64,000 nucleotides of DNA. Origin: Bacteroidota bacterium (GTDB taxonomy: Bacteria > Bacteroidota > Bacteroidia > Sphingobacteriales > Sphingobacteriaceae). The position numbers and the translations under genes are program-made. Position 1 is the first letter of the stretch, and every line of letters starts with the position of its first letter. The stretch is from contig JABDAU010000005.1 in assembly GCA_013289045.1 (NCBI GenBank), positions 19,116 to 83,115 on the forward strand, in the 5' to 3' direction. The notes beneath the pieces are model-generated. The model saw only the letters and a list, made by a program, of their open reading frames with translations, was not told the origin of the DNA and searched no databases. Of this stretch, positions 59,894-62,183 are shown one piece after another.

Positions 59894-60958
59894 ATGATTG
59901 AGACGCTGGACATTAAGACCACTAAAACGCAGCATTCGCGTTTAGCTGAGACTGATTTTGACAATTTACCGTTCGGGAAACATTTCGCCGACCACATGTT
60001 TGTGGCCGACTATGCCGATGGTGAATGGAAGAATTTTGAGATAGTCCCTTACGGGCCTATTGATATGAGCCCTGCGATTTCGGCATTGCACTATGGCCAG
60101 GCTTTTTTTGAGGGCATGAAAGCCTACAAACATGCCGACGGTACTGTAACGATTTTCCGTCCGGATAAGAACGCCAAACGTTTTAATAAATCAGCCGAGC
60201 GCCTGTGTATGCCCGAATTGCCGGAAGATATTTTCGTGCAAAGCATTGCCGCGCTGGTCGACCTTGACCGCGACTGGGTGCCTTCGCAAGCCAACCACGC
60301 CCTGTACATCAGGCCGTTTATGTTCGCTACCGATCCGTATCTCGGCGTTACCCCATCGGCAACCTACAAGTTTATGGTGCTGATATGCCCTGTCGGCCCT
60401 TATTTCTCTAAAACCCTTAGGGTGAAAATAGAGGATTATTACACCCGCGCTGCCGAAGGCGGCATGGGCTATGCCAAAGCCGCAGGTAACTACGGTGCAG
60501 GTATGCTGCCTGCAAAAAAAGCTGTTGAAGAGGGCTTTGACCAACTGATATGGACCGATGGCAAAGAGCATGCTTACATTGAAGAAATGGGCGCTGCCAA
60601 CGCAATGTTTGTGCTGGATGGCAAGGTGATCACCCCGTCAACCCGCGATACCATTTTGGATGGCGTTACCCGCGATACCGTTTTGGCGCTGGCCCGCGAA
60701 TGGGGGTACCCTGTTGAAGAACGCCGCGTATCGGTTGCCGAAATTATTGACGGCGCCAAAAACGGCAAATTACAAGATGCTTTCGGAGCCGGAACAGCTG
60801 CAACCATTGCACCTGTAGGCTCTATTACCTACGATGGTGAAGAATATTTCCTGAGTGACCCGAAAACCCGCGAATTTTCGCAACGTGTGCTGAAAGAGCT
60901 GGATGCCATTAAATATGGTGCTAAGGCGGATACGCATGGTTGGAATTATGTTGTATAA
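59894..60958 (+). CDS. ilvE: branched-chain amino acid aminotransferase
   Basis: ALHYGQAFFEGMKAYKHADGTVTIFRPDKNAKRFNKSAERLCMPELP; EEMGAANAMFVL; FGAGTAATIAPV. Confidence 0.95.
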   Translation: MIETLDIKTTKTQHSRLAETDFDNLPFGKHFADHMFVADYADGEWKNFEIVPYGPIDMSPAISALHYGQAFFEGMKAYKHADGTVTIFRPDKNAKRFNKSAERLCMPELPEDIFVQSIAALVDLDRDWVPSQANHALYIRPFMFATDPYLGVTPSATYKFMVLICPVGPYFSKTLRVKIEDYYTRAAEGGMGYAKAAGNYGAGMLPAKKAVEEGFDQLIWTDGKEHAYIEEMGAANAMFVLDGKVITPSTRDTILDGVTRDTVLALAREWGYPVEERRVSVAEIIDGAKNGKLQDAFGAGTAATIAPVGSITYDGEEYFLSDPKTREFSQRVLKELDAIKYGAKADTHGWNYVV

Positions 60959-60980
60959 AGCAACATAATCATACAAATGC

Positions 60981-61004
60981 AAAAAGCCGCAATAGCGGCT
61001 TTTT
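60981..61004. terminator. bidirectional-type terminator hairpin
   Basis: AAAAAGCCGC-AATA-GCGGCTTTTT. Confidence 0.85.
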
Positions 61005-61031
61005 TGCTTAACCCCCAAACCACGAACCGCC

Positions 61032-61083
61032 CGGTCAAGTGTCCACACTTGACCGAAACACAGCTGTAAGCGTCCACGCTTAC
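61032..61083 (+). repeat. REPIN-like unit 1
   Basis: CGGTCAAGTGT-CC-ACACTTGACCG AAACACAGCT GTAAGCGT-CC-ACGCTTAC. Confidence 0.92.
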
Positions 61084-61126
61084 AATAAATTTGCCGCAGA
61101 AATAATAAATAATCATATTTATTACC

Positions 61127-61648
61127 ATGTCACGCAATGCCTCAACCGACGAATTATTCTTCGTAACCCTTACCGTAGTCAACTGGATAGACGTATTCAC
61201 GCGACGCATTTATAACGATTTTCTCATAGAAAACCTGGCATGGAGCCAGCAGAATAAAGGGCTGAACGTTTACGCCTATGTAATCATGACGAATCATATC
61301 CATATGGTGGCGAATGTTACCGATGGCTCATTGGGTGATGTATTAGGTCATTTTAAAACTTACACCTCCAAGCAATTATTCAAAATGATAGCTGAGAATG
61401 AACTGGAAAGCCGGAAAAAATGGATGTTGAAAGCATTTGAGCAAGCGGGAAAATATAATCCGTTAAACGTTAATCATCAATTCTGGCAAAATGGCAATTA
61501 TCCCGTTTTACTTTATTCGCCTGCGGTAATAGATCAAAAGATAGATTATATCCATGAAAATCCGGTTCGCGCAGGATTTGTGGGTTCAGCGCATGAGTTT
61601 TGGTATAGCAGCGCTAACCCGGAAAGCCCATTGAAGATTGTTTCGTAA
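61127..61648 (+). CDS. REP-associated tyrosine transposase (RAYT, Y1 family)
   Basis: LNVYAYVIMTNHIHMVANV (HUH motif NHIH); KIDYIHENPVRAGFVGSAHEFWYSSA; flanked by REP hairpins. Confidence 0.92.
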   Translation: MSRNASTDELFFVTLTVVNWIDVFTRRIYNDFLIENLAWSQQNKGLNVYAYVIMTNHIHMVANVTDGSLGDVLGHFKTYTSKQLFKMIAENELESRKKWMLKAFEQAGKYNPLNVNHQFWQNGNYPVLLYSPAVIDQKIDYIHENPVRAGFVGSAHEFWYSSANPESPLKIVS

Positions 61649-61696
61649 GTGTGGACACTTACAGCTGTGCTTCGGTCAAGTGTGGACACTTGACCG
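61645..61696 (-). repeat. REPIN-like unit 2 (inverted; contains RAYT stop codon)
   Basis: GTAAGTGT-GG-ACACTTAC AGCTGTGCTT CGGTCAAGTGT-GG-ACACTTGACCG. Confidence 0.92.
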
Positions 61697-61709
61697 GGCG
61701 AATTATTAT

Positions 61710-61744
61710 AAAAGGGAAAAGCCGCTATGCGGCTTTTCCCTTTT
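61710..61744. terminator. 16-bp perfect hairpin, terminator-like
   Basis: AAAAGGGAAAAGCCGC-TAT-GCGGCTTTTCCCTTTT. Confidence 0.85.
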
Positions 61745-61827
61745 ACTTGAAGTGCCGCGGACACAGTAGCTGTCAAGTGCTGTGTTTGCTTAGCCGATCG
61801 CCCAGGACACTTGAATGGGCGGATGAG

Positions 61828-61851
61828 GTAAAGCCGCTATAGCGGCTTTAC
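61828..61851. repeat. 24-bp perfect palindrome
   Basis: GTAAAGCCGCTATAGCGGCTTTAC. Confidence 0.9.
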
Positions 61852-61868
61852 AATTGGAATCGGAATAA

Positions 61869-61900
61869 ACCACAAAAGCGGCTATTGCGGCTTTTGTGGT
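61869..61900. repeat. terminator-like hairpin with CCG/CGG swap
   Basis: ACCACAAAAG CGGCTATTGCGG CTTTTGTGGT. Confidence 0.8.
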
Positions 61901-61912
61901 AAAAATTGCGCC

Positions 61913-61964
61913 CGGTCAAGTGTCCACACTTGACCGAAGCACAGCTGTAAGCGTCCACGCTTAC
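61913..61964 (+). repeat. REPIN-like unit 3
   Basis: CGGTCAAGTGTCCACACTTGACCGAAGCACAGCTGTAAGCGTCCACGCTTAC; one base different from unit 1. Confidence 0.92.
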
Positions 61965-62183
61965 GCACAACAGGGTAGTTATACCCCTTTACTAAATCGG
62001 GTATTTCTACGTGGTGTTTCTACAACTTCCCTGTGTATTTTTACATCGTTCCCCCTGAACCTTATCATTTTAAACTCTCAGGCTATATAACTAGCCTGAA
62101 CAACAGGGGAACCACCAGATTTGCACGTTTTGTTTTTATTTAATGTTGTTATTAGCCGGCCTGATATTGCCCATATCCGCCGG

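Follow-up and report, generated by a model that had tools for sequence, protein, structure and literature searches.

The window, a 64,000-nucleotide stretch of DNA, comes from a 3.75-Mb host assembly that consists of 172 contigs and is 63.5% complete. A gene at 61127-61648 (+) encodes a protein of 173 amino acids with the motifs NHIH, WQ, and YIHENPVRAGFV. H57 and H59 form the HUH motif, Y141 is the predicted nucleophile, and the named relatives of the protein are from Mucilaginibacter. The curated RAYT model NF047646 scored the protein at 89 bits (cut-off, 80), and a match to Y1_Tnp was found at 26.5 bits. The IS200 TnpA model NF033573 gave 21.8 bits against a cut-off of 55, placing the protein outside the IS200/IS605 family. 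A PDB search with the single sequence missed 4ER8, the structure of the Escherichia coli RAYT, but a profile built from 37 relatives recovered it. When an AlphaFold model of the protein (mean pLDDT, 92.1) was searched with Foldseek, the best match was 4ER8, followed by the ISDra2 and IS608 transposases (2xm3 and 2vjv were matched). H57, H59, W120, Y141, S161, and S162 were invariant in the alignment of 37 RAYT sequences. By family and fold, the protein is a RAYT, a Y1 HUH nuclease, as the preliminary description had proposed.

RAYTs of subclass 2.6, equivalent to group 5 of Bertels and found in Bacteroidetes, are characterized in PMC6006769 by the consensus motifs NH[LIV]H, WQ, YIH[QN]NP, and SS, a length of ~179 amino acids, and flanks with "atypical" secondary structures that lack GT[AG]G and have copies elsewhere in the genome. 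The window RAYT nearly matches this motif set with NHIH, FWQ, YIHENP, and YSS; its host and nearly all of the protein's relatives belong to Bacteroidota, and its flanks are without GT[AG]G. The motifs and taxonomy indicate that it probably belongs to subclass 2.6 (Bertels group 5).

The gene lies within an element of ~675 bp with the order CCGCC, hairpin A, 10 nt, hairpin B, RAYT, hairpin B', 10 nt, hairpin A', and GGCGA. The complete element (675 bp, 61027-61701, +) has an inverted-repeat score of 44 across the gene, and its layout recurs in ~20 Mucilaginibacter loci. The 5' foot CCGCC (61027-61031, +) stands where canonical REPs have GTAG. It is followed by unit 1, with hairpin A (61032-61055, +; a 10-bp stem with a TCCA loop) and hairpin B (61066-61083, +), which has the polarity and apex of hairpin A. 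On the other side of the gene, unit 2 consists of hairpin B' (61645-61662, -), within which the RAYT stop codon falls, and hairpin A' (61673-61696, -), and is followed by the 3' foot GGCGA (61697-61701, -), whose consensus GGCGG is the inverse of CCGCC. Unit 3 (61908-61964, +) is an orphan left half-element with the foot GCGCC and hairpins A (61913-61936) and B (61947-61964). The 24-nt hairpin sequence CGGTCAAGTGTCCACACTTGACCG was found exactly at 61032-61055 (+), 61673-61696 (-), and 61913-61936 (+), with 0 matches expected in 100 shuffles. From reading the sequence, GGACACTTGAATGGGCGG at 61805-61822 (-) is probably a decayed right end that has lost the left hairpin arm. Four terminator-like GCCGC/GCGGC hairpins also surround the element, at 60985-61005, 61718-61742, 61827-61852, and 61874-61902. 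No Rfam family matched 60900-62100 at gathering thresholds.

As single-stranded DNA, every unit forms a pair of hairpins whose loops read TCCA (or TGGA), with z between -4.9 and -6.8, and a 10-nt linker containing CAGCT joins the two hairpins of each unit. The arrangement described previously, with unit 1 upstream, unit 2 inverted downstream, unit 3 further on, and two hairpins per unit around a linker of ~10 nt, was thus recovered in full, and the single base said to distinguish unit 3 from unit 1 lies in the linker (AAAC versus AAGC). The spacing of 265 bp given for unit 3 is correct when counted from approximately where unit 2 starts. The TCCA loop is closed by GTG/CAC, so the "CC tip" of that description corresponds to the two central bases of a loop of four. 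Its naming of each unit as a REPIN had to be corrected. The two hairpins of one unit stand in tandem with equal polarity, with CC on the strand that starts at the foot, whereas unit 1 and unit 2 are mutually inverted; a single unit is therefore half a REPIN, and it is two units in inverted orientation, with four hairpins between them, that resemble a REPIN. Canonical REPs carry the 5' foot GT[AG]G, in place of which CGCC, usually with a preceding C, is found here; a canonical REPIN unit has two inverted palindromes, in place of which two mutually inverted tandem pairs are found. Because these two defining features, the GTAG foot and the two hairpins, are lacking, we filed the element as a RAYT with variant ends.

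The hairpin core AAGYGTNNACRCTT was detected at 37 sites genome-wide, compared with 0 for a reversed control, showing that the palindromes flanking the RAYT are dispersed elsewhere in the same genome. The consensus from the 12 host loci that were read is CCGCC-A-~9 nt-B-short spacer-B'-~9 nt-A'-GGCGG, and in the window element the RAYT gene takes the position of the spacer. Complete or nearly complete four-hairpin copies occur on contigs C1, C21, C72, C121, and C126, together with half-copies; inverted unit pairs without a gene were found at about five other places in the incomplete host genome and are frequent in relatives. The further genomic copies expected from the preliminary description are thus present, with inverted four-hairpin forms among them. 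In a manual count in three relatives, 23/24 pairs of hairpin A within 150 bp were convergent and none was divergent. Also present are lone A hairpins with a foot on either side (CCCGCC-A-GGCGGG), a form that a deletion from A to A' would be expected to leave; an origin of "double foot" REPs by deletion is suggested in PMC6006769 as well. The host genome contains three further RAYT-like genes (C66:10215-10697, C9:51286-51741, and C133:358-648). AAGYGT-type hairpins were not found in the stretches fetched around these genes, which may therefore have other cognate repeats.

In relatives, ~20 Mucilaginibacter RAYTs with 76-86% identity to the window RAYT carry matching ends. Among 57 distant RAYT loci (39-55% identity, nearly all from Bacteroidota), 41 had an inverted repeat across the gene with a score of at least 14, or 40/57 when L064, which contains a run of N, was disregarded. 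In control pairings, which set the upstream flank of one locus against the downstream flank of another, 3/120 had such a repeat. Two hairpins per side were present in many of the distant loci. The association of RAYT and hairpins that had been read from the window is supported. In L052 (3001-3536), extra sequence interrupts the RAYT frame near codon 20 (translation CLPVGRQG*); this may be a palindromic insertion of small size. By manual count, hairpins were present in 23/24 genomes with a close RAYT, to which the RAYT flanks themselves contribute, and in about 48/97 genomes without one. G066 has 12 hairpins and 0 RAYT matches, indicating that the hairpin copies can persist beyond a close RAYT or be served in the absence of one. 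In G026 (C1:803341-809791), three right half-elements (L183, L186, L189, L263) each follow a sequence of 250-400 bp, of which at least 6 similar copies are found in contig C6 of G099; this is apparently another, unrelated repeat family.

Unit 2 carries GTAAGTGT..ACACTTAC where units 1 and 3 carry GTAAGCGT..ACGCTTAC, and this single compensated change had been taken as support for selection on structure. Weak on its own, it proved typical in a test across 117 distinct elements, which gives strong evidence for compensation; only the foot and the left arm were used to choose these elements. Pairing of the right with the left arm at variable positions had a mean of 0.81, compared with at most 0.65 in 2000 shuffles, and 96/110 left-arm letters that differed from the commonest were compensated (49/54, 16/22, 19/20, 11/12, 0/1, and 1/1). 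The pattern may reflect selection on structure, although template-switch correction of imperfect palindromes could produce the same pattern.

The apex was common to both hairpins of a unit at a frequency of 0.74, compared with 0.24 for shuffled partners (p = 2e-4, n = 32); for distant loci alone, the values were 0.61 and 0.29. Between loci, apices vary and include GTGGAC, CGGGACG, TTACAAA, GCAAATGC, CTGAAAG, and GCAGGAGC. Three-base TCC-type loops were found in L039, L040, L041, L043, L049, and L052, and the intact RAYTs of these loci group together in a single clade (support 97/95); one RAYT clade has changed its hairpins from the TCCA to the TCC loop. RYN_308 (apparently G094) has one RAYT per loop type (L042 and L043), each with matching hairpins. 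In the genus survey, some genomes had only TCC-type hairpins (14 versus 0 in G045) and others only the TCCA type (29 versus 0 in the host genome, G000), and a few contained both. The foot CGCC lies beside hairpin A in all 117 elements, which were selected with it; an extra 5' C precedes it in 88/117, with little conservation further out. RAYTs of G017, G091, and G117 (73-74% identical) have the foot GCA instead of GCC. CCGCC as an insertion target outside the element is unlikely. The L041 element follows the RAYT sequence ATGACTAACC, whose intact form has no CGCC there, so that CCGCC is probably the element's own, on the thin evidence of a single junction. From these patterns, we infer that the RAYT reads the apex and foot and not the sequence of the stem. 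Such reading of the apex would agree with the biochemistry of group 3 RAYTs, in which specific loop positions are critical (PMC8266576), and would differ from the E. coli RAYT, for which the loop is not specific.

The compensated stems and common apices could instead result from a mutation process, namely quasi-palindrome template-switch correction or gene conversion between hairpins, and need not reflect recognition by the RAYT. Template-switch correction readily affects perfect palindromes. Truncated tandem RAYT copies and the in-place inversion that may separate L192 from L199 (see below) point to recombination at these sequences. Duplication or gene conversion between hairpins could also produce a common apex. 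Correction leaves unexplained, however, why one new loop appears in all four hairpins around the RAYTs of one clade and why two RAYTs in one genome have different loops, and we regard a mutation process as an unlikely alternative to recognition by the RAYT.

The flanks of the close RAYT loci, examined in about 20 genomes, were non-homologous at most loci; common flanks were seen in L034/L036/L037/L055/L056, in L045/L047, and in L035/L051. The first five RAYTs lie in one neighborhood, where the gene of L036 is reversed relative to the flanks, owing either to a flip or to a hot spot that received insertions more than once. The site of the window element 3' of ilvE is empty in G026, G043, and G099. 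In favor of mobility, as are the non-homologous flanks and the empty site, the L041 element stands immediately behind a truncated RAYT copy and the L044 element immediately ahead of one. No base-exact empty site was found when the joined flanks of five elements were searched against 120 Mucilaginibacter genomes, in which only coding flanks aligned, as no relative was close enough. A synteny comparison of G026 and G099 (~92% identity) gave no clean insertion junction; many elements were common to both at the same places, with partial deletions and one element inverted in place. This four-hairpin element (L192, G026:1072972-1073104; L199, G099:C6:222425-222535) lies at the same place in opposite orientation with a small deletion on one side, as would follow either from an in-place inversion or from separate insertions. 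Two pairs of RAYT copies, each pair from a single genome, had 79-86% nucleotide identity (14-21% difference); movement in those genomes was not recent, because the copies are not near-identical.

These data also bear on the explanation that the RAYT is domesticated, with the hairpins kept for a host role such as transcription end, mRNA protection, or supercoiling, and that movement is ancient. The divergence of RAYT copies within genomes, the many elements that G026 and G099 have at the same places, and one RAYT locus that is common to three genomes and hence vertically inherited would all fit domestication. By contrast, it accords poorly with the differing RAYT neighborhoods in most of about 20 genomes, the empty ilvE site in relatives, the separate intrinsic-terminator-like hairpins beside the window element, and an apex type that tracks the RAYT clade; we consider domestication improbable, and less probable than the mutation process. 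Chance inverted repeats or ordinary terminators beside a transposase gene, for which only the setting with several terminator-like hairpins nearby would speak, have a negligible probability and are refuted by the shuffles (0 hairpin matches expected), the reversed control (37 versus 0 sites genome-wide), and the conservation of the hairpins in relatives.

We consider it likely that the locus is a complete RAYT element ("REPtron") of the Bacteroidota subclass 2.6 / group 5, with non-autonomous copies served in trans. Most likely, the RAYT would bind single-stranded DNA at each end through the apex (TCCA loop and closing pairs) and the CCGCC foot, Tyr141 would cut near the foot, and the RAYT would then rejoin the strands. 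The short four-hairpin copies (A-B-spacer-B'-A') and half-copies would be non-autonomous derivatives on which the same enzyme acts in trans. Binding to apex and foot, cleavage, and mobility in trans are predictions from sequence comparison, and the "self-contained mobilization" ascribed to the window locus in the preliminary description would likewise be a putative property. A broader proposal, which we put forward tentatively and hold to be somewhat less probable than its opposite, is that group 5 RAYTs are not fully domesticated but IS-like, with double-hairpin ends, MITE-like copies in trans, and a changeable code of apex and 3-5 nt foot in which the stem is ignored. If this is true, the switches of apex (TCCA to TCC) and foot (GCC to GCA; G017, G091, and G117) record co-evolution of enzyme and substrate, and specificity is testable by swaps.

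For the proteobacterial RAYTs of groups 2 and 3, biochemistry is given in PMC8266576. Here, a single genus provides a compact enzyme, a substrate that is defined, and natural enzyme/substrate switch pairs, of which two share a genome; with these, simple swaps can test recognition by apex and foot. A RAYT subclass whose flanks had been called only "atypical" also gains an architecture that is open to testing.

The window element resembles the REPINs/BIMEs of group 2/3 RAYTs (E. coli TnpAREP, Stenotrophomonas, and Pseudomonas) in that inverted palindromic units flank the RAYT, short copies are dispersed, and the foot lies 5' of the hairpin. A canonical REPIN, however, has a GTAG foot and two hairpins, whereas in the window type the foot is CCGCC, the hairpins number four, and the inverted pair encloses the gene. 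IS200/IS605 elements (IS608 and ISDra2) are similar in their Y1 HUH fold, subterminal hairpins, and size of ~0.7 kb with one short gene. The ends of IS200 are not mirror images, unlike those of the window element, and the transposase family also differs (NF033573, 21.8 bits versus 55). TIRYTs (PMC3733652) have a RAYT-like gene between long terminal inverted repeats, with repeat families elsewhere; they are mostly of subclass 2.1 according to PMC6006769, with an HTH tail and GGGG[AT][CG]A[CG] motifs that were not seen in the window element. Subclass 2.6 (PMC6006769) is alike in motifs, protein length, Bacteroidota host, flanks without GT[AG]G, and genomic copies. The main text of that paper gives no flank architecture, whereas here the ends are defined as inverted double hairpins with a CCGCC foot, a unit-wide apex, and a loop that switches with the RAYT clade. 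The system appears to be of a known, REPIN/RAYT-like kind, with ends of an unusual form.
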